DNA of 64,000 nt from Myxococcales bacterium (GTDB taxonomy: Bacteria > Myxococcota_A > UBA9160 > UBA4427), in assembly GCA_022563535.1 (NCBI GenBank), contig JADFNE010000002.1:62001-126000 (forward strand). The letters run 5' to 3'. A program made the translations under genes and the position numbers. The stretch's first letter is position 1; the number at the start of each line of letters is the position of its first letter. The notes under the pieces are model-generated. The model saw nothing but the letters and a program-made list of their open reading frames with translations. It searched no databases and was not told the DNA's origin. Below are positions 741 through 49,826 of the stretch, in pieces.

Positions 741-2366
741 CTATCCCGCCATCCAGCTTCGAATGGTCTTCACGCTGTCGTCGGCGCGCTTGGCCGCCAG
801 GGCGTCGACTCGTTCCTGCAACGTGAGTTCGCGTTGGGGCAGTTCTTCTTCTTGTTCGAGTTCCGCATCAACTTCGAGCTGTGCGGCCAGATTCCCGGCG
901 GTCGAGAGTCCGAGCAACTGCGGATTGCTCTCACCCTCGAGCACGGCCGCCAACGGCTGGACCATGAATTTTCCAAACAGAATCAGAGCGAGAAGTAGTC
1001 CTACGATATTGAGCACCGTGGTGATCAGTACAGTGACCTGGGGATCGAACCAACCGGGATCTTCTTCGATCGTAATCGTGTGGAATGGCGCGTTGATCAA
1101 GCTGAACTCATCCCCGCGCTCTTCCGAAAACCCAATGGCCGCCTTGGCGAGCAGCTCGAAGTGTTCCATTCGCTCTTTGTTCCAGGGCCGGAATCCGCCT
1201 TCGCTTTCTTGTGCTTCCTGACCCCCTTCTAGACCTTGGGGCGTGGTGGCTGCTGGGGGCATCCCATCGATCAGAACGGCGACCGATAGACGCTGGATGG
1301 TTCCCATGGGCAGAACCGTGTGGCTCACCAACTTGTTGATCTCGTAGTTGATCGTCGAGGTTCTGCGATTGGCAGCGCTCTCACGTCCTCCACCCCCAGT
1401 ATCCGGAGCAACGGCATCGGCAGCATTGGCACGAATACCCGCCACGCCTCCGGCGGCGGCCACGCTCCCATCTCTGGAATTGTCTTCGCTCAGACGCTCA
1501 CTGCGCACCACCTGGGAGTCGGGATCGAAGGTTTCTTCGGTCGTCTCGGTCTTGGTCCAATCGAGTTGGGCGTTGACTTGTGCGGAGACATTGCCAATTC
1601 CGATCGTGCGCTCGAGCAGAGAAATAATCTGCTTCTCGAGAGACGCTTCGATGCGCGCCTGCTGGGCCATCGCCCCATCAGGTGCGAGAGGACCTGGCGG
1701 GCCCGAGCCCATCGGTGCCAGCAGGCGACCGTGATTGTCCACCACGGTAACTCGCCCTGCTTCGAGTCCTTCGATGCTCGAGGCCACGAGATGAACGATT
1801 CCGTTTACCTGATCGGGCATCAAATCTCGCCCGGGCTTCAAACGAGTGATCACCGACGCGGTTACGTGCGAGGTTTTCTTCCGCAGGAACACCGATTTCT
1901 CGGGGATCGCGATCTGCACCCTGGCAGATTCGATGGAATCAATCTGCTCGATGCTGCGAGCGAGTTCACCCTGCATGGCCCGCTTGTAGTTGATCTTCTG
2001 GACGAAGTCCGTAACACCGAAGTTTCCCCTGTCAAAGATCTCAAAACCAACGCCGCTGCCCGCCGGCAGACCCCTTGCAGCGACGCGAATTCGCGCTTCG
2101 TGCACCAACGGCGTGGGGACCATGATCGCGGTTCCCCCCTCTTCCAGGCGATAGTCGATGTTTTCCGCGGCCAGGGCGTCGACCACCGCCGCCACTTCAC
2201 TGTCGCCCAGACCACGAAACAGCAGGCGATATTGTGAATTGGCGGCGCCGTTACTCATCCAGAAGAAGAACGCGAGCGAACCTGCGGCGGTGATCGCCAG
2301 GGTTATCTGTCGCGCCGGCGAAAGGTGCTTGAACTGGTCTGCAATTCCACTAAGCCAATTGGGCAA
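741..2366 (-). CDS. fliF: Flagellar MS-ring protein FliF
   Basis: FliF builds the MS ring in the inner membrane and is the base on which the switch and export gate assemble. The 541 residues have a membrane segment near residues 21-36, a long periplasmic region with the ring-building motifs, a second membrane segment at about 445-469, and a cytoplasmic tail. The tail ends in the VKTIRSWM-type motif that binds FliG. The start is TTG at 2364-2366, with an AGAGGA ribosome site seven bases upstream. It sits between fliE and fliG in the basal-body operon. Confidence 0.95.
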   Translation of the reverse strand: MPNWLSGIADQFKHLSPARQITLAITAAGSLAFFFWMSNGAANSQYRLLFRGLGDSEVAAVVDALAAENIDYRLEEGGTAIMVPTPLVHEARIRVAARGLPAGSGVGFEIFDRGNFGVTDFVQKINYKRAMQGELARSIEQIDSIESARVQIAIPEKSVFLRKKTSHVTASVITRLKPGRDLMPDQVNGIVHLVASSIEGLEAGRVTVVDNHGRLLAPMGSGPPGPLAPDGAMAQQARIEASLEKQIISLLERTIGIGNVSAQVNAQLDWTKTETTEETFDPDSQVVRSERLSEDNSRDGSVAAAGGVAGIRANAADAVAPDTGGGGRESAANRRTSTINYEINKLVSHTVLPMGTIQRLSVAVLIDGMPPAATTPQGLEGGQEAQESEGGFRPWNKERMEHFELLAKAAIGFSEERGDEFSLINAPFHTITIEEDPGWFDPQVTVLITTVLNIVGLLLALILFGKFMVQPLAAVLEGESNPQLLGLSTAGNLAAQLEVDAELEQEEELPQRELTLQERVDALAAKRADDSVKTIRSWMAG

Positions 2367-2404: not shown

Positions 2405-2707
2405 TTACACTGCGCGGGTCAATTCCCGATAGGCTTCAAGAGCTCGGTTGCGTACTTCCAACAACATTCGCAGGGATATGTCGGCCTTGTTTACGGCAAG
2501 AACGGTCTCCACGATCCCGACCTCGTCCTTGGCAAACATTTCCGCCTTCTTGTCGGCGTTCAACTGCGCTTCGTTTGCTTGATCGAGAATGGATCGAACC
2601 ATCTCGCCAAAGACATCACCTGGCGTCTTCTCTTTCTCGATCTCCAGAGCCGGGGTCTGCATCTCGATCTTCGCTGGCGCGCTATCTCCGATACGAAACG
2701 TCTCCAT
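2405..2707 (-). CDS. fliE: Hook-basal body protein FliE
   Basis: FliE is the adapter between the MS ring and the rod. The protein is 100 residues, the usual length, with the family's C-terminal half (LAVNKADISLRMLLEVRN-like helix near residues 71-90). It begins with ATG two bases after the flgC stop and lies in the standard flgB-flgC-fliE-fliF-fliG order. Confidence 0.95.
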   Translation of the reverse strand: METFRIGDSAPAKIEMQTPALEIEKEKTPGDVFGEMVRSILDQANEAQLNADKKAEMFAKDEVGIVETVLAVNKADISLRMLLEVRNRALEAYRELTRAV

Positions 2708-2709
2708 GA

Positions 2710-3135
2710 CTATGCACCTACTCGCATGATGGCCTCGGACATCGCGCGAACCTTGTTGAACACCATCAGGTTTGCGTCGAAAGACCTGCTAGCCGACATC
2801 AAATTGGTCATCTCCTCGACAACATTTACCCTCGGGTATCTCACCAGGCCGTTCTCGTCAGCATCGGGATGGCCGGGTTCGATCCGCGTGATGAAGTCGC
2901 GATCATCTTCGAGAATGCGATCCACGCGAACGGCGCGAATTTCTCGCTGCAGGTGATTGGCGAATGGGCCGCCCAGGGCTTCCGAGCGAAACACGGGGTC
3001 TAGACGTCGGTACGGCCCGCCTGCGGCTGTGCGCGTGGTCTCCGCGTTGGCGAGATTCGATGCGGTCAGGGTGATCCGCATCCGTTGCGCCTCCAGTCCC
3101 GACGTCGCGATATCCATGATGTCTCCAAGCGACAT
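2710..3135 (-). CDS. flgC: Proximal rod protein FlgC
   Basis: FlgC is one of the proximal rod subunits, exported by the flagellar type III apparatus. The 141 residues carry the N-terminal rod/hook signature NLANAETT near residues 28-35 and a C-terminal heptad-like helix ending in a conserved region typical of axial proteins. It follows flgB with a 51-base gap and precedes fliE directly. Confidence 0.95.
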   Translation of the reverse strand: MSLGDIMDIATSGLEAQRMRITLTASNLANAETTRTAAGGPYRRLDPVFRSEALGGPFANHLQREIRAVRVDRILEDDRDFITRIEPGHPDADENGLVRYPRVNVVEEMTNLMSASRSFDANLMVFNKVRAMSEAIMRVGA

Positions 3136-3186: not shown

Positions 3187-3573
3187 TCATCCACCGGTGA
3201 CCGCGATCCGCGTGAGTGATGCCAGCCGCGCCAGAATCGACGCGCGACTGGTAAACGCTGCCGTGTTGCGATGGATCGCGATGACTTCGTCATCGAGCTT
3301 GACGCCATTACCGTCGGGCCGACTTCCCTTCGGACCGATCTCGAGGCGATGCCGGCTCCCGGGGTCCGAAGAGAGATCTCCGAAGTGTTTGGAGTCGGTC
3401 CGGTCCAGGTTCATCACGGCCTTGTCGAAGGTTTCCACAAACTTCAAGTCGCGCCTGCGGTACCCGGGTGTGTCTACATTGGCAAGATTGCCCGCGAGTA
3501 CCGCGGACCGAGCGAGCCGAAAGTGAATGGCATCTTCGAGCGCGCGAGCACTGCTTCCGTGGAGCAGGTCCAA
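3187..3573 (-). CDS. flgB: Proximal rod protein FlgB
   Basis: FlgB is a proximal rod subunit. The 128 residues carry the axial-protein signature NLANVDTPGYRRRD at about 31-44. The start is TTG at 3571-3573, backed by a strong GGAGG ribosome site nine bases upstream. It is the first gene of the basal-body operon, with a perfect sigma-54 promoter about 45 bases upstream. Confidence 0.93.
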   Translation of the reverse strand: MDLLHGSSARALEDAIHFRLARSAVLAGNLANVDTPGYRRRDLKFVETFDKAVMNLDRTDSKHFGDLSSDPGSRHRLEIGPKGSRPDGNGVKLDDEVIAIHRNTAAFTSRASILARLASLTRIAVTGG

Positions 3574-3616
3574 TTCTTCCTACCTCCTTGCATAGCGAAC
3601 GACATGGGTCGAGATA

Positions 3617-3631
3617 GCAAGGGGCGTGCCA
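3617..3631 (-). promoter_or_regulatory. Sigma-54 promoter of flgB operon
   Basis: On the minus strand this reads TGGCAC-GCCCC-TTGC, a perfect match to the -24/-12 consensus TGGCAY-N5-TTGC. The predicted transcript start is near 3605, giving a short leader to the flgB TTG at 3573. Confidence 0.88.
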
Positions 3632-3767
3632 GGGAAGAAGCAAACTCTGCGCTGTTCTAGGCGGACTAGATCGAGTCTCAGTGCAGCAGTTTTCGATTCG
3701 AATCGTTCAGGGATTGCAGGAGAGATTCAGGCTGAAAATGGAGGGGGGAAAATCTTCCGAGTAGCAA

Positions 3768-5072
3768 TCAAGCGAGCCCGTAGGCGCGAATTTTGTTGCG
3801 CAGGGTCCGAACATTGATTCCGAGCAGTTGGGAAGCATGAGTTCGATTACCGTTCGCTTCCCTAAGCGACCTTACGACCGCCTCCCGTTCGAGATCGCGT
3901 AGGTTCAAGAATCGCGGCTCTTCGCGCGACAACAGCGCAAGCTTACCGTTGCCGGATAGCAATCGTCCGAGATCAACCGATCGGCCGGGAAACAAGACGA
4001 CGGCCCGCCGCATCAAGTTGTCGACTTCTCGAATGTTCCCGCGAAATGGATGCTCGAGCAGCAGATTGAAGTCAGATTCGCTGAACTGTGGCGGCTCACA
4101 GCCGGATTCGCTCGCGTGCCGTTTCAAAAAGAACTGGGCCAGGAGTCGAATGTCACCCTTCCGATCGCGTAGAGCGGGAAGCGAGAGAACCACGACATCG
4201 AGTCGGTAAAACAGATCCTCTCGAAATCGACCTTGTGAGACTTCGTCGGCGAGATCCAGACGGCTCGTGGCGATGATGCGACAGTCGACGCAACGTCCGG
4301 TAGAAGCGCCCACAGCCATGACTTCACGTTCTTGAAGCAGACGCAAAAGTAGGGCCTGCACCGAAGATGAGGCCTCGTCAACACCATCGAGCAACAACGT
4401 GCCCCCGTCGGCCGAAGTGATCGAACCTTCGCGCGCCCCCGAGGCTTCGAGAAGCGCACCGCGTTCTCGGCCGAAGAGTTCTTCTTCCGCACAGGCGTCA
4501 GAGAGAGAAGCGCAATCAACCACAACCATTGGCCCGCGCTGTCGAGAACTCTGCCGATGAATCCGCCCGGCCAGCATTTTTTTGCCCGTACCACTCGCAC
4601 CTTGGATCAGAACGGTTGCGGTGCTAGTTGCCGCAGCTTCGGATTGCCGGAGCACATCTAGAACCACAGAGTCCTCTGTGACAAATTCGGGTTCACCAAG
4701 CATCGCCCGTCCCGGAGTCGCACCCGCGAGAACCGCCGACAGCGCATGCTCGAGAAAGTCGATTCGGAAGGGCTTTCGAAGATAGTCACGCGCGCCCTGT
4801 TTCATCGCTGCGACGGCAAGTTCGATGGATGGCGACGAACCCATCGCAAATACCACGGGTTTCGGTTCGGTCTGAGCGAGACGGCCCAGGCATTCGAGGT
4901 CTTCGGTGCTGTTGACATCCACCAATGCGGCGCGACAGGTGTGCTGACCGACCCGGGCTGCCAGTTCGGCGGGCTCGCCAATGGCATCGACTTCATAACC
5001 GGCGTTGCGCACTGCCCGTTCGAGATCCCGGCGCAGACCGGGAGAACGTTCATAGATCAGAACTCTTGGCAT
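3768..5072 (-). CDS. NtrC-like regulator with degenerate receiver and no GAFTGA
   Basis: The 434 residues are laid out as receiver (1-120), AAA+ domain (about 125-365) and Fis-type helix-turn-helix (about 395-434). Asp52 and Lys100 are kept in the receiver, but the usual acidic pair is Tyr7-Glu8. Walker A (GASGTGKK, 158-165) and the arginine pair (Arg283, Arg290) are present. The sigma-54 contact loop GAFTGA is GALLEA (205-210), and the Walker B acidic DE is DG (229-230). GAFTGA is needed for sigma-54 remodelling in this family, so the protein probably cannot open sigma-54 promoters alone. It could be a repressor, a DNA-binding partner or a hetero-oligomer subunit. It overlaps the upstream pseudokinase gene by 16 bases. 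Confidence 0.85.
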   Translation of the reverse strand: MPRVLIYERSPGLRRDLERAVRNAGYEVDAIGEPAELAARVGQHTCRAALVDVNSTEDLECLGRLAQTEPKPVVFAMGSSPSIELAVAAMKQGARDYLRKPFRIDFLEHALSAVLAGATPGRAMLGEPEFVTEDSVVLDVLRQSEAAATSTATVLIQGASGTGKKMLAGRIHRQSSRQRGPMVVVDCASLSDACAEEELFGRERGALLEASGAREGSITSADGGTLLLDGVDEASSSVQALLLRLLQEREVMAVGASTGRCVDCRIIATSRLDLADEVSQGRFREDLFYRLDVVVLSLPALRDRKGDIRLLAQFFLKRHASESGCEPPQFSESDFNLLLEHPFRGNIREVDNLMRRAVVLFPGRSVDLGRLLSGNGKLALLSREEPRFLNLRDLEREAVVRSLREANGNRTHASQLLGINVRTLRNKIRAYGLA

Positions 5073-5758
5073 GATGCTTCCTGCAGATTCGAGCTTGGAG
5101 CGTCCCGGCCTGGGACGACGAGACGCAGATCGCTCGAAAGCGTATCCATGGTCCCCGACAGCACACCGCCCGCTTCCAGTGCAGCGGCTTGAGAATGCTG
5201 AACCGCAGACTGCGCCGTCGCGATTTGCGTTTCGTTCAACGCCGTGGCACAGCGACAGAAGAGCGACACTTCAACGGCCTCTTCTTTTTGCGAAATTCCG
5301 AGCGTGAACTGGCCACCTTCTCCCGAAAGGACCAGCGCGAGATGGAGCAACTCGGTGCAAAAGCGCCGCACCTGTTCGGGGTTTCCGGTGACGACACCGC
5401 GGTCTGGCTCACGCCATTTCCATTCGATCCCGCACGCGGCCAGAGCCGGGGTAAAGCGGCGGCGCAACTTCGTCAATACCGGAGCGAGATCCAAATCGGT
5501 CTCGAGCGCGCATGGGGGGGGCACCAGCACGCGCAGCGTCCTCTCCACCAATCCATCGATCTCGGCCACGGCTTCGAAAACCAGCTCGGCGTATGCGCGC
5601 GCGTTCGGGGTGAGGGCTTCGCGGTACACCTGGCTGGCCGCCAATTCGATCTGGGCCAAAGGCGTGCGAATTTCGGCCGAAAGCGCCGCCGCGCGGGTTT
5701 CCGCTGGAAGGCTGACGGACGGCAGTATGAATTGGCTGCGATTGTCGTCGGGCGTCAT
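5057..5758 (-). CDS. Histidine-kinase-like protein without phospho-histidine
   Basis: The 233 residues begin with a DHp-like helix whose H-box reads LSAEIRTPL (residues 26-34), where kinases have LSHEIRTPL. Ala28, coded GCC, takes the place of the histidine. The rest resembles a shrunken ATPase domain with no clear N-box asparagine and no DxGxG or GxGxG loops. It is therefore a likely pseudokinase that keeps the dimerisation fold. It contains a C8 tract on the coding strand (window 5514-5521). It overlaps both neighbours and probably acts with the NtrC-like protein encoded just downstream. Confidence 0.8.
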   Translation of the reverse strand: MTPDDNRSQFILPSVSLPAETRAAALSAEIRTPLAQIELAASQVYREALTPNARAYAELVFEAVAEIDGLVERTLRVLVPPPCALETDLDLAPVLTKLRRRFTPALAACGIEWKWREPDRGVVTGNPEQVRRFCTELLHLALVLSGEGGQFTLGISQKEEAVEVSLFCRCATALNETQIATAQSAVQHSQAAALEAGGVLSGTMDTLSSDLRLVVPGRDAPSSNLQEASCQEF

Positions 5759-7812
5759 TGCACAGCTCCCAACTGATAGCGACTGGCCAAGCTCTCAGCC
5801 CTGGCTTCGTACTCGGCAAGTAGGGACCAGGGCCCCGACGCTTGTGATTCCGTTTCTGCATCCTGCGGTCGAGCGTCAGAAGAAATGTCCGTCGTCCAAT
5901 ACTGCGCCTCGTTTTTTCGGGCACCTTCGGGAAGATAGCGAGCGGCAATGGTGTACATCGCATTGGCCCGATCCGTCCGACCTTCACCTCGCAGGCGAGA
6001 GGCGGCAAGCATGGCCGCTTCTCCAAATGCCGAGGGTTCGGCCTCTCGTGCGGAATCTGCGATCGAATGGAGCGTGCGCTCCAGCAGTTTCAGGTCATCG
6101 GAATTTTTATGACGCTCGACCACCGTTGCGAACAGAAGCGCGAGTGAAACCACTTTCTCTTTCAGCTTGTTGTTCGGCAACAGCTCGCGAAGCAGTTCGC
6201 TCGCCGTCTCGTCGTGCTGAAGAGCAATTTCGGCCGCGGCGAGAATGGCCTTCCATTCGAGTATTCGATCGCCACCGTGTCGGATATTCACTTCGGCCGC
6301 GGCGCGTGCGAGTGAAACGTCTCCAACCGCCAGCGAAGCACGTGCCAGGGGAAGCGCCACGTCTCCGGCAACCTCCAGTCCTTGGCTCCGGGTCAATGAT
6401 CGATACAGTTCTATCGCCATCGCATGCAATTGCATGCGTTCGAAACAAACGCCGAGCGCGAGAAATGGCGAAATATCGCTCGTGTATCCGAGCAGGACGC
6501 CGTAGCGCCCTCCCAAGCGACGCACGAGTCGCCAACAGTCTTTGTCCTCGTCCGCTTCGAGCACACTGCGGGTCAACAGATGATCGAGATCTCGATCAAA
6601 ATGTCGAGCCAACACGGGGTCGGCTCCTTCGTAGGCGAGTCTCGTGATGGCAGCGATTCCCTCATCGAGATTTCCTTGCAGCACGAGTTCGTGAACGAGC
6701 GCCGCCAGGGCGTAGATCTGCACACCGCGATTCCGACTCGACGTCGCTGCGTGGAGTGTCACCAGCCGAGCGTCTGGGGAGGCCGAACTCACTCCGAGAT
6801 CGATCTGCCGCACCCGTGCGAGGTCTTCGATGGCATTATTCCCTTTGCGTCCCCACAATTTTCGCAAGCGTACACGGGCTTCTTTGGGGCGACCTTCGAG
6901 CACGTCGAGATCGGCGCGGCGTATTTCCATCAGGTCCCGGGCGTTTCGGTCCTGGACAGCCTCTCCGTAGCGATCGAGCCAGGTTTTGGCCGCCCCAAAA
7001 TCTCTGGAGTCGAGCGCCGCTTCCGATGCGCGAAGGGACCAGTCGGCCATCAGCGCGCCAAAAGCCGCACCATGAGGTAACAGGGTTTCGTATTCGAGTC
7101 GCACCGAGCGCGACTTGCCGGAATCGAAACTCAGATCTGTCAGACGCAGGCGCGCCGCCGCCGCCGTGCGCGGATTCTTGGACGATGCGAGTTCTCGATA
7201 GAGGATGTGCGCGTTGAACGGCTCCTTGCGCCGGTACAGGAGTTCGGCCCGATAGAACTTCACGCGTTCCAGGGAGAGGGGGTCGTCGCTCGATCCAGAA
7301 GACAGCCTGGCGATTCTGCTGAGCGCAGCGTTTGCTTCGGGCAGGAGTCTCAAAGCGATGTCGAGCCGCGCTGATTCGAGAAGTGCACAGACGAGGCGAT
7401 CGGTTTTTCGCTCATGTTTCGTAATCTGTTCAAGTTGCGCCCGCGCAACGAGTTGTTCATCGCGTCCACGGCCGCGCCGCGCCGCGAGAGTCGCCCGCAA
7501 CAGCGCAACATCCCGTTCGTGTTCCGCTGGATCTTGCATCGCAACGGTATCCGCGTAGGTGTCCAACAATTTCTTCGATTCTTCAAATTCTCCCGCCGCC
7601 ATCCCCTTATCGAAGTTTCCGAGTTGGAGGGAAAGACGCGCAGGAATGCAAAGCGGGACTGCTTCAAGTCGCGGGGGATCGAGCAAAGTCGAGCCCAGGA
7701 TCACATAAGGACTCACAGGAAGTTCCGACCGTTGCTCATTGCTGGCCGAGGCTATCGCCCCCGCGAGAGCCGCAAAGCCAACCAGCAATCCGATGAACAT
7801 GCTGCGCCTCAC
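5755..7812 (-). CDS. Exported helical-repeat (TPR-like) protein
   Basis: I do not recognise a named family. The 685 residues start with an N-terminal signal-type segment (about residues 4-24, ending in an Ala-Ser-Ala stretch). Many alpha-helical repeat units rich in Ala, Leu and Arg follow, resembling tetratricopeptide or Sel1-like solenoids. The start is GTG at 7810-7812, overlapping the PilZ gene stop as GTGA; an ATG at 7800 is possible. Its place in a sigma-54-driven operon suggests a periplasmic flagellar accessory or scaffold role, by inference only. Confidence 0.7.
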   Translation of the reverse strand: MRRSMFIGLLVGFAALAGAIASASNEQRSELPVSPYVILGSTLLDPPRLEAVPLCIPARLSLQLGNFDKGMAAGEFEESKKLLDTYADTVAMQDPAEHERDVALLRATLAARRGRGRDEQLVARAQLEQITKHERKTDRLVCALLESARLDIALRLLPEANAALSRIARLSSGSSDDPLSLERVKFYRAELLYRRKEPFNAHILYRELASSKNPRTAAAARLRLTDLSFDSGKSRSVRLEYETLLPHGAAFGALMADWSLRASEAALDSRDFGAAKTWLDRYGEAVQDRNARDLMEIRRADLDVLEGRPKEARVRLRKLWGRKGNNAIEDLARVRQIDLGVSSASPDARLVTLHAATSSRNRGVQIYALAALVHELVLQGNLDEGIAAITRLAYEGADPVLARHFDRDLDHLLTRSVLEADEDKDCWRLVRRLGGRYGVLLGYTSDISPFLALGVCFERMQLHAMAIELYRSLTRSQGLEVAGDVALPLARASLAVGDVSLARAAAEVNIRHGGDRILEWKAILAAAEIALQHDETASELLRELLPNNKLKEKVVSLALLFATVVERHKNSDDLKLLERTLHSIADSAREAEPSAFGEAAMLAASRLRGEGRTDRANAMYTIAARYLPEGARKNEAQYWTTDISSDARPQDAETESQASGPWSLLAEYEARAESLASRYQLGAVQ

Positions 7813-8381
7813 CGAAGGTCACTCCGATTCGCAGTCCGGTCTAGCATGAGCCGCTGGACCTCGTACGCGTGTCGAACGATCGCCTCTCGGTCGCGATTTC
7901 GGATCGAATGAAACACCAGCGCCACACCAGAACTCGCACCGACCGAACCCACTTCGTTTCCTAAGACGACCCGACCCAGCAGAATGAGTGTTCGACCGCA
8001 CTCCTCGGGCAGGTCGAGCTGAATTTTGACGAGATCTCCTACGCGATAGATTTCCGGCGCGTGCAGCCGAACACCCGACCCAGAAAGTTCGACCGCGCGC
8101 TTTTCCGTCTGCGACAAGGCGAGTTCCACATCGAATCCGGTTTGTTTCAATATGAGATCGAGCTTGTTTTCAATCCGGGTGAGCCTGGCTTCGAGAAGTT
8201 TGTCCGTCAGGGACACGCTTTCTGTACACGGAATCCCGAGTTCTCGGGTGAGTTCCTCCGCTTCCGCTTCGGTGAGCCATGTGAGTCGAATCGCAAGTCT
8301 GCTGGAAACGCGGAAAAAGTCGCGCCGGCATTCGCCATTGTAGGTATCGGTCTGAACCCCGGGGCTCGCAGCGAACGGCAT
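7809..8381 (-). CDS. PilZ-domain protein
   Basis: PilZ domains bind cyclic di-GMP and often tune flagellar motors. The 190-residue protein has the arginine motif RRDFFR (residues 19-24). About 75 residues later comes ELSGSG (98-103), in the place of the usual D/NxSxxG; Asp is Glu here. The ATG at 8379-8381 overlaps the upstream stop as TGATG, which sets the start. The roughly 60-residue helical insertion between the two motifs is unusual. It links the operon to the motile/sessile switch, by inference. Confidence 0.75.
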   Translation of the reverse strand: MPFAASPGVQTDTYNGECRRDFFRVSSRLAIRLTWLTEAEAEELTRELGIPCTESVSLTDKLLEARLTRIENKLDLILKQTGFDVELALSQTEKRAVELSGSGVRLHAPEIYRVGDLVKIQLDLPEECGRTLILLGRVVLGNEVGSVGASSGVALVFHSIRNRDREAIVRHAYEVQRLMLDRTANRSDLR

Positions 8382-8974
8382 CAGTGAAACTCCGCAAGAA
8401 CGTCCCGCATGGCGCGGTCCCATTCTTCGAGGCACGAATCGACCTCGTACTCGAGGAGGTCCGCGACATGAACCCAGTCTCCGTTGGTTTGACCTTCGAG
8501 AATCTGTTCGAGCCACCGGGTCAATTCACTCATCGGTTCGATCAGTGTTTGCGCGGCGCTTGGAATCACCGCAGCAACGCCAGAAACTGCCGCAACGAGC
8601 ACACCCAGGGAATCAGAGAGCTTCGCCATGATATTGTTGGCTTCTTCACTGTGTCCCGTGCGGAACAAATTCACGACTTGGTCCCCTGCGCGACGAACCG
8701 CTTCTACGTATTCACTGCTGTGCTGAAGGCTCGACAGTGCGATATCCATCGTCGGCCGCGACTCAACCTCGATGTTCTTGACGCCGTCGATCGAGATTTC
8801 TTCCAGAGAATTAAATGAGTCCTCGGGTAGATCGAGACCGTCAATTCGAATGCGCGTCAGCAGGTGTGGTTCATCTGTACCGCTTCCACCACAGCGCTCA
8901 ATTACCTCTCCGAGATTTTCACACTCAGTGCCGTCGAGAGCATGGGCTACTGCGTTGTGTACGACTCGAATCAT
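8381..8974 (-). CDS. Unknown protein leading the PilZ/pseudokinase operon
   Basis: I do not recognise the family. The 197 residues have an N-terminal half of alternating short strands (1-80) and a mainly helical C-terminal half ending in an acidic, Trp-containing segment, somewhat like FliS/FliT-type helical chaperones in character. The ATG at 8974 is chosen over an upstream one because GGAGGGAGT lies just before it. It is the first gene after the sigma-54 promoter at 9054-9068, so it is probably a flagellar-regulon protein. Confidence 0.7.
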   Translation of the reverse strand: MIRVVHNAVAHALDGTECENLGEVIERCGGSGTDEPHLLTRIRIDGLDLPEDSFNSLEEISIDGVKNIEVESRPTMDIALSSLQHSSEYVEAVRRAGDQVVNLFRTGHSEEANNIMAKLSDSLGVLVAAVSGVAAVIPSAAQTLIEPMSELTRWLEQILEGQTNGDWVHVADLLEYEVDSCLEEWDRAMRDVLAEFH

Positions 8975-9053
8975 GATGCAACTCCCTCCGAACTCCGCAC
9001 GATCTTCATAATCAATAGGCAAGCCAGATCCCGAGGACTCGTAGCCCTCTTGA

Positions 9054-9068
9054 GCAAGGCACGTGCCA
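9054..9068 (-). promoter_or_regulatory. Sigma-54 promoter of accessory operon
   Basis: On the minus strand this reads TGGCAC-GTGCC-TTGC, a perfect -24/-12 pair, with a leader of about 70 bases before the ATG at 8974. It places the PilZ/pseudokinase operon in the flagellar sigma-54 regulon. Confidence 0.87.
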
Positions 9069-9072
9069 ACAC

Positions 9073-9294
9073 TTGATTCTCACAACACACCGTGTTCGCC
9101 TACCGATTCAATCCCGCGCGGATATCCTCAAACAGGCGGAAAAGATGCGCGCGTTCTGCACATTGGAGATGTTGGACGAATCGATCTGGCCAATCGACGC
9201 GACGGTGATCTATCCTCTGGTCCCCACCCCCTGGCACCACACTCTTTTCACGGTGAAGAGCTTGCTTGCAACGCGCAATCGCTCGATGGAATGA
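9073..9294 (+). CDS. Possible small protein, doubtful
   Basis: A 73-codon frame from TTG at 9073 (or ATG at 9145) has codon choice like neighbouring genes and lies 57 bases before the acetyltransferase. There is no convincing ribosome site and no family that I recognise. It starts next to the minus-strand sigma-54 promoter. The rest of 8975-9351 shows nothing beyond that promoter. Confidence 0.25.
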   Translation: MILTTHRVRLPIQSRADILKQAEKMRAFCTLEMLDESIWPIDATVIYPLVPTPWHHTLFTVKSLLATRNRSME

Positions 9295-16215: not shown

Positions 16216-16323
16216 GACTCTTTATCCTCCCTGAAGACCGAGCTCCCCACCTTCCTTGGTGAGGTAGTAGACAAACGTCGACCGCATTGAACACGTCATG
16301 CGCTCGGCACGTGCTCATTGGTT

Positions 16324-16338
16324 GCAACTGACGTGCCA
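16324..16338 (-). promoter_or_regulatory. Sigma-54 promoter of flagellin gene
   Basis: On the minus strand this reads TGGCAC-GTCAG-TTGC, a perfect match. The leader is about 100 bases long, and in such organisms the leader often carries CsrA sites. Here a GGA lies in the ribosome site itself. Confidence 0.88.
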
Positions 16339-29359: not shown

Positions 29360-29462
29360 ACTGCTCTTGTCTTCCTCTGTGCAGAAATCGTTCACTCTGC
29401 AGCGGTGCGTTCGCACGGGTCGGAATATCTTTCCGACTCTTGAGTCCACAGCGGCTGGATAC

Positions 29463-29477
29463 GCAATCTGCGTGCCA
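29463..29477 (-). promoter_or_regulatory. Sigma-54 promoter of flgF operon
   Basis: On the minus strand this reads TGGCAC-GCAGA-TTGC, a perfect match, about 105 bases before flgF. The rest of 29360-29697 shows no gene. Confidence 0.88.
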
Positions 29478-39221: not shown

Positions 39222-40628
39222 CTAGCGATCGGTGGCAACAAGTGGGCCAGGACCCGACACGACCTTCAGTGCCCCGTCTCCCACCTGATGCTGTTCAATG
39301 CCGAATTCCTTTAATCGTCGCCACAGTGTCGTGGTGGAGATCTGAAGGAGTTCGGCGGCTTGCTTGCGGTTCCATCCTACGCGCTCGAGGGTGGAAAGAA
39401 TGTGAGCTCGCTCCATCACCTGAAGACTCTGGATCGTCTCCCCTTCGCGAACCAGCGACGCCTCGCGCAGGCGAATCGGCATATCCTCGACCATGATGCG
39501 CTCACCACGACACAGCGCCGCACCTCGCTCGATCGAGTTTTCGAGCTGTCGAACATTTCCGGGCCAGTCGTGGGTCATCAGCACGTCGAGGGCACGGGGG
39601 TCGAGACCGGTGATCCGCTTTCCGAGCTTCTTGGCGAAGCCCTTGATGAAGTGTTTCGACAGCACCGAGATGTCCTCGAGCCGTTCTCGCAGGGCTGGAA
39701 CGTGGATGGGAATCACCGCCAGCCGATAGTAGAGATCCTCTCGAAACCGCCCGGCCGCCACTTCCTCTTCGAGCGGCTTATTCGATGCTGCGACCAACCG
39801 CACGTCGACAAAACGGGTGCACTCGGATCCAACCGGTCGAATTTCTCCGGTTTGCAGGAATCGCAAAAGCTTGACCTGCATGGGTGCTGGCATGTCGGCA
39901 ACTTCGTCGAGAAATACCGTGCCGCCATGAGCGTGTTCGAAGATTCCCTTCTTGTTGCTCGATGCGCCGGTAAATGCCCCCCGTCGATGTCCGAACAATT
40001 CACTTTCGAGCAAGGTCTCGGGAAAGGCCGCTGAGTTGATCGCCGAAAAGACCTTGTCGACCCGAGGACTCAGACGGTGAATCGCGCGACCGACGAGTTC
40101 CTTGCCTGTCCCGGTCTCTCCGGTGATGAGCACGCTGCTGTCGGTTCTGGCGATCTTCAGGACCATCTCCATCAGCTCACGAATTGCACGTGAGCGTCCG
40201 ATAATTCCCGACTCGGCGGCAATGGTGAGGGGGTCACTTTCTTCTAGCGCGCCGCGATGCTCGATCGTCCTCTCCTTCACCGACATCTGCACGACTCCAA
40301 TCAAACGCTCGCGGTTGATCGGCTTTCTGAGATAGTCCTGGGCTCCCAGACGCATTGCATCGACTGCAGCCTCGATACTTCCAACTCCTGACATGATGAC
40401 CACCGATATTTCCGGTTGCTCATGTCTAATTACCTTCAGCAAGTCCAAGCTCTTCATCGCCTCACGTTGGAGGTCGACCAGGACAACATCGAACTCGATC
40501 GCTCGACACAGACGGAGTGCTTCCTCCCCCGCGTGCTCCGAGTGGACTTCGTGTCCCACTTCTTGAAGTATCTCGGTAACTTGCATACAAACACTCGGCT
40601 GTTCGTCGACAACAAGAATCCTAGCCAC
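39222..40628 (-). CDS. Sigma-54 response regulator, flagellar activator (FlrC/FleR type)
   Basis: The 468 residues have an intact receiver (Asp8, phospho-acceptor Asp52, Ser80, Lys102), an AAA+ domain with GETGTGKE (170-177) and GAFTGA (217-222), Walker B VFLDEV, and a Fis-type helix-turn-helix near 420-460. It is the only intact GAFTGA activator in the window, so it probably drives the six sigma-54 promoters. The GTG start at 40628 is set by GGAGAGGAG upstream; the longer frame overlaps the next gene. Its upstream partner is a pseudo-receiver protein. Confidence 0.9.
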   Translation of the reverse strand: MARILVVDEQPSVCMQVTEILQEVGHEVHSEHAGEEALRLCRAIEFDVVLVDLQREAMKSLDLLKVIRHEQPEISVVIMSGVGSIEAAVDAMRLGAQDYLRKPINRERLIGVVQMSVKERTIEHRGALEESDPLTIAAESGIIGRSRAIRELMEMVLKIARTDSSVLITGETGTGKELVGRAIHRLSPRVDKVFSAINSAAFPETLLESELFGHRRGAFTGASSNKKGIFEHAHGGTVFLDEVADMPAPMQVKLLRFLQTGEIRPVGSECTRFVDVRLVAASNKPLEEEVAAGRFREDLYYRLAVIPIHVPALRERLEDISVLSKHFIKGFAKKLGKRITGLDPRALDVLMTHDWPGNVRQLENSIERGAALCRGERIMVEDMPIRLREASLVREGETIQSLQVMERAHILSTLERVGWNRKQAAELLQISTTTLWRRLKEFGIEQHQVGDGALKVVSGPGPLVATDR

Positions 40629-40716: not shown

Positions 40717-42042
40717 TCAAGATGCTTCGCAGCCCTTGCTCGAGACAACTCCCTGGAGTTCCTCTGCCAAGTTGCTCAACTGCAGCGTTTCGCTGCGGAT
40801 CAATTGAACCGCTTCGCAGTCGCTTCGATCGTTTTGCCCACGGGGTTCGATACTCGCCAATGCTCGACTCACTCCGGCGACGGTTTTTCTCAGGCGTTCG
40901 GCGATCCGCCGATCTCGATCGCATCGTTTGGCCCGTTTCAATGCTGTTTGACGAATGCGCTGCAACGTCGGACCGAGGGCATCCGTCAGGCATTCGGCGA
41001 GGTCGAGCGGCCATCCGGAGACAGACTGCGCCTGGCCGGTCACCACCAACACACTCGCCAGGCATTGATCTCCGGCAACCACTGGGATGGCGAGAATGCT
41101 TCGGCTGGATACGGACTCGTTGGCCATCATCCGATTGAGCCCGAACACGAACGGGCGCGACGCTCCGTTGATCGAAGCGAGAACGCGACTGAGCTTGGGG
41201 GCCAACCGGCTGCGGTCAAAGCTCAAAGCTGCGGAGCTGCGTTCGTCGATTCGACTCAGGATCCCTTGATGTTGGTCCCACCACCAGAGCTGATGGGGCT
41301 GAACGAATCGAGCAAAGGCACGGCCCAGAACAGCGGCTAGCTCCCCCTCGGTTTCGCACTGTGCAAAGCTTGCTTCCGCGCGAGAACGGGTCCGCGCAAG
41401 AGAATCGCAGACGAGGTCCGGCGATGAGACCGGCCAAAGTCTTTCGCTCACAGAATTTGCGCGAGACTCCGCTTCAAAATCCGCCGCGATTGCCGGTTCT
41501 TGTGCTCGGGTCGGCCACTCAACCAACAACAAGTTGCGAACGAGTTCTCGCAGGCTCTGTGCGTCCCAAGGTTTGCCCAGGAAGAACGAGACGTCGGATC
41601 TTCTAATGGCATCGCGAATGACCGCGATATCGCATTCGCCAGTAATCAGGACCCGGGTTGTCTCAGGAAACTCGAGCCGGGTCGTCTCGAGAAAGCCAAT
41701 TCCACCTCCGGGAGAAAGATTGAGCTCGGCGATCACGAAGTCGATCTTTTCTCGGCGGAGCATCGCCAGACCAAGTGCACCGGTTTCCGCAATGCGAACA
41801 CGAAGGGCAGGATGGCGCAACGAGCGTGCCAGTGCGGCACACAATCCTGGAGAGTCACCCACGATCAAGATCCGACGATGTGACTTCGGCAGATGATGAC
41901 CGCGCACACCTTTAGTCGGAGACTGCATCTGGCTGGACAAGCCGGGAGCAACGTTGCCCCTGGCGATGGGAAGATCTTGCCCAGTGGCATTCCTTCTTGA
42001 TATGTTTGGTCGCCTCGAACCGATCACATGACCATGCAGCAC
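40717..42042 (-). CDS. Pseudo-receiver, GAF and DHp-like protein
   Basis: The 441 residues show a receiver-like domain (about 55-175), a GAF domain (about 215-360) and a short DHp-like helical end with no ATPase domain. The phospho-acceptor Asp is Glu106 (IAELNLSPGG); the first acidic pair is Gly-Asp; Thr134 and Lys157 are kept. It sits where the sensor kinase of a FlrB/FlrC pair would be, yet it can neither accept phosphate in the normal way nor bind ATP. The GTG at 42042 has GAGGGG six bases upstream; GTG 42084 and ATG 41928 are alternatives. Confidence 0.75.
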   Translation of the reverse strand: MLHGHVIGSRRPNISRRNATGQDLPIARGNVAPGLSSQMQSPTKGVRGHHLPKSHRRILIVGDSPGLCAALARSLRHPALRVRIAETGALGLAMLRREKIDFVIAELNLSPGGGIGFLETTRLEFPETTRVLITGECDIAVIRDAIRRSDVSFFLGKPWDAQSLRELVRNLLLVEWPTRAQEPAIAADFEAESRANSVSERLWPVSSPDLVCDSLARTRSRAEASFAQCETEGELAAVLGRAFARFVQPHQLWWWDQHQGILSRIDERSSAALSFDRSRLAPKLSRVLASINGASRPFVFGLNRMMANESVSSRSILAIPVVAGDQCLASVLVVTGQAQSVSGWPLDLAECLTDALGPTLQRIRQTALKRAKRCDRDRRIAERLRKTVAGVSRALASIEPRGQNDRSDCEAVQLIRSETLQLSNLAEELQGVVSSKGCEAS

Positions 42043-42091
42043 CGAGTTCCCCTCACAAGAACGTTTGCGCACCGTCTTGCGCACGCGCCCT

Positions 42092-49601: not shown

Positions 49602-49826
49602 CTAGCGCTTCTTTCTACGGCGAGCCTTTTTCTTGGCTGCCTTCTTCTTGCCAGCCTTCTTCTTGCCGGCCTTCTTCTTGCCAGCCTTCTTCTTGCCAGC
49701 CTTCTTCTTGCCAGCCTTCTTCTTGCCAGCCTTCTTCTTGCCAGCCTTCTTCTTGCCGGCCTTCTTCTTGCCGGCCTTCTTCTTGCCAGCCTTCTTCTTG
49801 GTGGCCTTCTTTCGTCGTGCTGCCAT
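49602..49826 (-). CDS. Lysine-rich KKKAG-repeat histone H1-like protein
   Basis: The 74 residues consist of a short basic head, ten perfect KKKAG units, one KKKAA and an Arg/Lys tail. The coding DNA is a 15-base tandem repeat (window about 49640-49800). Such Lys/Ala repeats resemble the histone H1 C-terminal tail and bacterial DNA-compacting proteins, so nucleic-acid binding is likely. GGGGGGTG precedes the ATG. Repeat number may vary between strains. Confidence 0.75.
   Translation of the reverse strand: MAARRKKATKKKAGKKKAGKKKAGKKKAGKKKAGKKKAGKKKAGKKKAGKKKAGKKKAGKKKAAKKKARRRKKR

Follow-up and report, generated by a model that had tools for sequence, protein, structure and literature searches.

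Motor-motif loss in a flagellar NtrC-family regulator paired with a pseudo-kinase, and its probable role as a DNA-bound accessory of a second, intact sigma-54 activator

Sigma-54 enhancer-binding proteins (bEBPs) contact sigma-54 through their GAFTGA motif and require the acidic pair of Walker B for hydrolysis; single bEBPs that lack GAFTGA and mixed bEBP rings are already known. In Vibrio (FlrB/FlrC) and Pseudomonas (FleS/FleR), a kinase-regulator pair lies beside the basal-body genes, and a regulator of REC-AAA+-Fis architecture serves sigma-54 promoters of rod and hook genes. Caulobacter FlbD is a response regulator without a cognate kinase that works under its non-kinase partner FliX, and from sites of a single type it can act as an activator or as a repressor (PMC3930126, PMC7064773). 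The GAFTGA-less NtrC proteins of Caulobacter and Rhodobacter capsulatus, as well as VpsR, have lost the L1 contact to sigma-54, keep DNA binding and act at sigma-70 promoters (PMC10274813). In Rhodobacter sphaeroides, the two sigma-54 activators FleQ and FleT serve one flagellar hierarchy, with fleT located in a sigma-54 operon together with fliEFG, and FleQ/FleT (PMC7277832), like HrpR/HrpS (PMC9542535), are mixed activators.

We analysed a 64,000-nucleotide stretch of contig JADFNE010000002.1 from a Myxococcales bacterium (the window), in which a kinase-like gene and a regulator gene occupy the position of FlrBC and FleSR, next to basal-body genes and sigma-54 promoters. The features of this region are as follows.

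741-2366, minus strand: fliF
2405-2707, minus strand: fliE (gene order and orthologues)
2710-3135, minus strand: flgC
3187-3573, minus strand: flgB
3616-3631, minus strand: perfect sigma-54 site between the regulator and flgB-flgC-fliE-fliF (promoter scan)
3768-5072, minus strand: NtrC/FlrC/FlbD-type regulator with receiver, degenerate AAA+ and Fis-type helix-turn-helix (HTH), 434 aa (ORF, Pfam)
5057-5758, minus strand: pseudo-histidine kinase (DHp and degenerate CA fold) without a phospho-His, 233 aa (ORF, structure model)
5755-7812, minus strand: helical-repeat-like (TPR-like) protein with no Pfam match, found 5' of the pair order-wide
7809-8516, minus strand: PilZ-domain protein in the same operon as the pair (Pfam)
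8381-9022, minus strand: first gene of the operon, 213 aa, family unknown
9053-9068, minus strand: perfect -24/-12 sigma-54 site of the pair's operon (promoter scan)

Five overlapping genes lie behind the sigma-54 site at 9068-9053, and the pair makes up the last two, with reading frames that overlap by 16 bp; a sequence-only reading of this DNA had held that the two proteins are made together under sigma-54 control, and the operon structure bears this out. Allowing up to one mismatch, the sigma-54 pattern TGGCACG-N4-TTGCW is matched eight times in the window, always on the minus strand, against an expectation of 0.45. The order orf-PilZ-TPR-like-HK-RR-flgB-flgC-fliE-fliF is kept order-wide wherever contigs reach and genes are detectable (21 loci in other flagellated genomes). 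The genes for the PilZ protein, the 213-aa protein and the TPR-like protein likewise accompany the pair throughout the order. FlgC is present in 22 of 80 genomes of the order and in 9 of 30 of the family; flagellar genes are patchy, with one congeneric genome (G001) lacking a FlgC match. A contig search with the TPR-like protein returned six contigs from metagenome-assembled genomes, titled Myxococcota, Deltaproteobacteria or just bacterium, and a genome-contig search with the kinase-like protein alone found no relative.

The regulator carries the Pfam domains Response_reg, Sigma54_activat, AAA_lid_14 and HTH_8. Its L1 reads GALLEA in place of GAFTGA, and its Walker B (GTLLLDGVDE) has DG where DE is expected. 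The regulator still has Walker A as GASGTGK, an arginine-finger segment reading FREDLFYRLD and its Fis-type HTH, so that the motif losses and retentions described from the sequence alone are confirmed. A structure model (pLDDT 86) keeps the AAA+ fold. The receiver retains its Asp (ALVDVN), which is replaced by Glu in some intact relatives, and the acidic pair is absent. By score, the best NCBIfam match is FlbD (NF050807, 298 bits, under the cut-off of 750), and among solved structures ZraR, NtrC-family proteins and Vibrio FlrC come closest in sequence. Without the GAFTGA contact to sigma-54 and the Walker B acid pair that hydrolysis needs, the window regulator should not be able to open promoters, or remodel sigma-54, by itself. 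In this it is unlike FlrC and FleR, which have GAFTGA and the Walker B Glu, and unlike FlbD, which has GAFTGA and itself activates sigma-54 transcription.

The same residues are lost from L1 and Walker B in two congeneric genomes. Among further relatives, L1 reads GAWLEQ or GAWLEA, or the loop is deleted, the deletion occurring in other genera. The class outgroup (f12) and families f3, f4 and f5 have the full set of intact motifs, with Walker A, GAFTGA or GAFSGA, DE and arginine fingers, and genus g34 of family f6 has DQ in Walker B with GAFTGA intact. All nine genomes of family f1 have lost the motif, as have genus g17 of f6 and genus g32 of f7, and in these losing regulators the entire L1 loop, Walker B and the fingers are often gone too. 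The sister genera g8 and g10, as well as f6 and f7, have degraded versions of the L1 loop, Walker B and the finger segments or lack them, and g10 has lost the Walker A Lys in addition. On the FliF tree, where two partial regulators were scored by their finger segments (f6 genus g24, whose sequence ends before L1 and whose finger segment is degraded, and G072 of f4, whose fingers are intact), the intact or lost state changes three times, each change being forced by well-supported branches. Since f12, f3, f4 and f5 are intact, the three changes are read as three losses, and the motor, judged from its motifs, is lost independently at least three times within the order. A sequencing or assembly artefact is ruled out, because the same kind of losses recur in independent genomes. 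In other classes, flgB-adjacent bEBPs mostly have GAFTGA intact. One locus from another class (L134, genome G189) has an ORF 5' of flgB whose AAA+ domain is degenerate and which lacks an HTH; it may be one more case in which a flagellar bEBP has decayed separately.

The two halves of the regulator have evolved differently. For AAA+, the f1 regulators average 36% identity to intact relatives, against 66% among the intact regulators themselves; for the HTH, the corresponding figures are 67% and 79%. Nei-Gojobori dN/dS estimates, which are rough because dS is high, are 0.28-0.38 for AAA+ and 0.00-0.02 for the HTH in g10. The genus of the window has 0.22-0.31 for AAA+ and about 0.07 for the HTH, while a comparison of two intact regulators yields 0.07 and 0.04; FliF gives 0.09-0.15 in all comparisons. 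The HTH of the g10 regulators is 100% identical at a dS of 0.6-0.8. Both AAA+ and the receiver evolve faster in the losing lineages, and the reading frame is open in every losing genome. These rates indicate that selection is relaxed on the AAA+ motor and not on the DNA-binding domain, with some constraint on AAA+ remaining, as its dN/dS is still below 1.

The partner of the regulator has Ala at the His position of its H-box (ALSAEIRTPL), as the sequence-only reading had noticed. Its HisKA match is sub-threshold (20 bits against the Pfam cut-off of 26.9), and Pfam finds no ATPase-domain (HATPase) match, unlike in the kinases FlrB and FleS. An AlphaFold model built from 16 sequences (mean pLDDT 84) has its structural matches in the PDB among histidine-kinase cores, including those of ZraS, RetS and DivL. 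By this model, the protein at 5758-5057 is best called a pseudo-kinase, with a histidine-kinase fold that lacks the catalytic residues. RetS and DivL, both among the top structure matches, share this core fold, but they are large multi-domain proteins, whereas the pseudo-kinase is a bare 233-aa core. The H-box His is absent in all 16 kinase orthologues, including those beside intact regulators, and its loss is therefore older than that of GAFTGA in the regulator. A joint loss of His and GAFTGA is thus ruled out. In the f12 outgroup, a motif search found no H-box protein just 5' of the regulator.

A second sigma-54 activator is encoded elsewhere in the window, just upstream of fliL/fliM/fliN-type genes.

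39222-40628, minus strand: intact activator with GETGTGK, GAFTGA, a DE Walker B, FREDLYYRL and a TTLWRRL HTH (sequence, Pfam)

Orthologues of this protein (51-85% identity) are found in 19 of 22 flagellated genomes of the order, the window's included, and all 19 have an intact GAFTGA or GSFTGA. A close match is missing in G026, G069 and G072, whose assemblies are incomplete. The f12 outgroup has no close orthologue, its best matches of 43-44% being at the level of paralogues. As with R. sphaeroides FleQ and FleT, two sigma-54 activator-type proteins thus belong to a single flagellar hierarchy; FleT is described as a working co-activator, whereas the regulator described here lacks the remodelling motifs and has its own HTH and probably its own site. 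The gene 5' of the intact activator (40717-42084) encodes a receiver followed by a long region with no Pfam match and no recognisable kinase domain, and its product may be another kinase-less partner.

Two dyads recur near the flagellar sigma-54 promoters, m1 (GG[AC]A-N5-T[GT]CC) and m2 (T[GT]CA-N3-TG[AC]A). In the window they are found at the following positions.

3726-3736, minus strand: m2 dyad 5' of flgB, TTCAGCCTGAA, a predicted site of the intact activator
3746-3758, minus strand: m1 dyad 5' of flgB, GGAAGATTTTCCC, with one mismatch, a predicted site of the regulator
9247-9257, minus strand: m2 dyad TTCACCGTGAA, 189 bp 5' of the -24 element of the pair's operon
29422-29434, minus strand: m1 dyad GGAAAGATATTCC, 43 bp downstream of the first base of the flgF-type site
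29462-29477, minus strand: sigma-54 site (one mismatch) of a flgF-type rod gene

All 21 relatives have a sigma-54 site, with two mismatches at the most, in front of flgB. With the window genome counted, exact m1 occurs in 19 and exact m2 in 18 of 22 flgB upstream regions, where shuffles give 0.3 and 0.085; the patterns were derived from these same regions, so the excess is partly built in, yet it is very large. Across 717 kb, m1 lies upstream of 31 of 67 sigma-54 sites (2.2 expected) and m2 upstream of 33 (1.3 expected). At flgB, m1 precedes the -24 box by 77-139 bp; it is in phase with m2 and clear of the promoter. Centre to centre, m1 and m2 lie 20-24 bp apart in the majority of genomes; g10 has 32-33 bp and one genome 41 bp, values near 2, 3 and 4 helical turns. 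The m1 associated with flgF is found downstream of the start site in each of the three congeneric genomes, always at the same position. The promoter of the pair's own operon in the window has no m1, and its m2 lies at -189, against -188 in the congener G003, which suggests that the operon is probably driven by the intact activator.

The f12 outgroup has the regulator, with m1 in 5/5 and m2 in 0/5. Because f12 has the regulator and m1 but neither m2 nor the activator, m1 probably belongs to the regulator and m2 to the intact activator, an assignment that we infer from co-occurrence across few genomes. In other classes, exact m1 stands before a sigma-54-like site in two of five loci with an RTLRNK-type HTH and in none of four with another HTH, counts that agree with the assignment of m1 to the regulator, the loci being too few for proof.

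We consider it probable, at roughly 0.6, that the regulator is a flagellar FlrC/FlbD-type enhancer-binding protein which is no longer a sigma-54 remodeller but, with its ATPase dead, serves the intact activator as a DNA-bound accessory, with the pseudo-kinase as adaptor. It is taken to be a DNA-bound accessory because its HTH is kept by selection and its predicted sites lie beside those of the activator. In this case, what was once an "on" switch probably now sits on the DNA to help or to brake a second activator that still works. The intact activator (40628-39222) would bind m2 and drive sigma-54 transcription of both the pair's operon and flgB. The accessory regulator, itself a product of this operon, would bind m1 beside m2 at a helically phased distance and tune the assembly or function of the activator at the promoter, so that activator, operon, accessory and activator sites would form a feed-forward or feedback loop. 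The pseudo-kinase would be a DHp-type dimer without kinase activity and most likely an adaptor that binds the receiver of the regulator, analogous to FliX, which controls FlbD without phosphorylation. The locus would then resemble FlbD/FliX in having a response regulator without a cognate kinase under a non-kinase partner, with a pseudo-kinase in the place of FliX. Against the accessory reading count the three genomes with no close activator match, the mismatch in the window's m1 at flgB, the missing m1 at the promoter of the pair's own operon, the flgF m1 beyond the start site and the constraint that AAA+ still shows. More tentatively, a sigma-54 activator may at least three times in the order have become a dead, DNA-anchored cis platform, with the second activator 2-4 turns away, steered by a pseudo-kinase that died earlier.

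As to the sign of the effect, which we infer from the position of m1, a cooperative helper at flgB is slightly favoured over a brake. The phased upstream m1 at flgB suits a helper, and the m1 downstream of the start near the flgF promoter in the window's genus would suit a brake or repressor. In Desulfovibrio, however, a flagellar bEBP that is an activator is also reported to have sites 40-70 bp downstream of promoters (PMC4641369).

The sequence-only reading took the pair for a feedback brake on the intact activator. Since the predicted sites adjoin upstream of flgB and near flgF promoters, the regulator probably acts where the activator acts, and this part of the claim stands as probable. 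A brake does not follow from it, because a phased m1 at 77-139 bp upstream fits cooperative help as well as inhibition. A brake in the full sense, in which the dead, sigma-54-induced regulator would repress the activator's promoters by blocking, by a roadblock or by poisoning mixed hexamers, is possible and on the unlikely side. It would accord with the sigma-54-driven operon with m2 upstream, with the downstream m1 at flgF in three congeneric genomes, with the arginine fingers retained in the window's genus and with FlbD, which represses early fliF from an ftr site (PMC3930126). The off-promoter m1 at flgB, phased with m2, argues against it, as do the sister genera, which lack arginine fingers, so that poisoning would not be the conserved function. 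Poisoning through the kept fingers is ruled out as a general function, because the fingers are gone from the sister genera and from f6 and f7 while the HTH and m1 persist.

It is rather unlikely that the regulator shares a ring with the intact activator and supplies it with fingers or DNA contacts. The adjacent and phased m1 and m2, the fingers and AAA+ fold kept in the window, and the precedents of FleQ/FleT in a flagellar system (PMC7277832) and of HrpR/HrpS (PMC9542535) would all fit such a subunit, but L1, Walker B and the fingers are degraded or gone in g8, g10, f6 and f7, and a ring role is therefore not general. Less likely again is a regulator that now acts at sigma-70 promoters in the manner of the GAFTGA-less NtrC proteins and VpsR, although an identical loss of L1 is known to accompany sigma-70 regulation (PMC10274813). 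Here m1 clusters at flagellar sigma-54 promoters, beside the predicted sites of a second activator, and the ATPase residues are lost as well, namely Walker B and, in g10, the Walker A Lys, both of which Caulobacter NtrC needs (PMC10274813). Plain decay of a gene on its way to loss would explain the faster evolution of AAA+ and the receiver and is very improbable, given the open frames, the unchanged g10 HTH and the retention of m1.

By the features tested, the window regulator, read as a DNA-bound accessory, shares one feature with each of the systems compared and is a full member of none. What is new here is the absence of the His from all 16 kinase orthologues, the loss of GAFTGA and Walker B on at least three apparent occasions, the frozen HTH and the m1/m2 dyads. 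One gene at one genomic position offers a full series from an intact activator to a ring-dead DNA-binding protein, with independent repeats and with DNA sites that can be read alongside. Such a system allows one to ask what roles bEBPs have at sigma-54 promoters beyond remodelling, and why two activators persist at one flagellar checkpoint.

Several further sequences were observed in the course of the promoter and dyad scans. A perfect sigma-54 site at 16323-16338 of the window precedes a flagellin gene and has neither m1 nor m2; flagellin promoters of the relatives also have neither dyad, and another input must therefore act there. In four loci of genus g10 (L031, L033, L034 and L035), an m1-like sequence, such as GGAAGAAGATGCC, lies about 72 bp downstream of the -24 element of flgB and overlaps the flgB start region, and it may be an operator or just ribosome-binding-site composition. 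Furthermore, positions 49638-49743 of the window hold tandem near-copies of TGGCAAGAAGAAGGC on the minus strand, mostly in steps of 15 bp.
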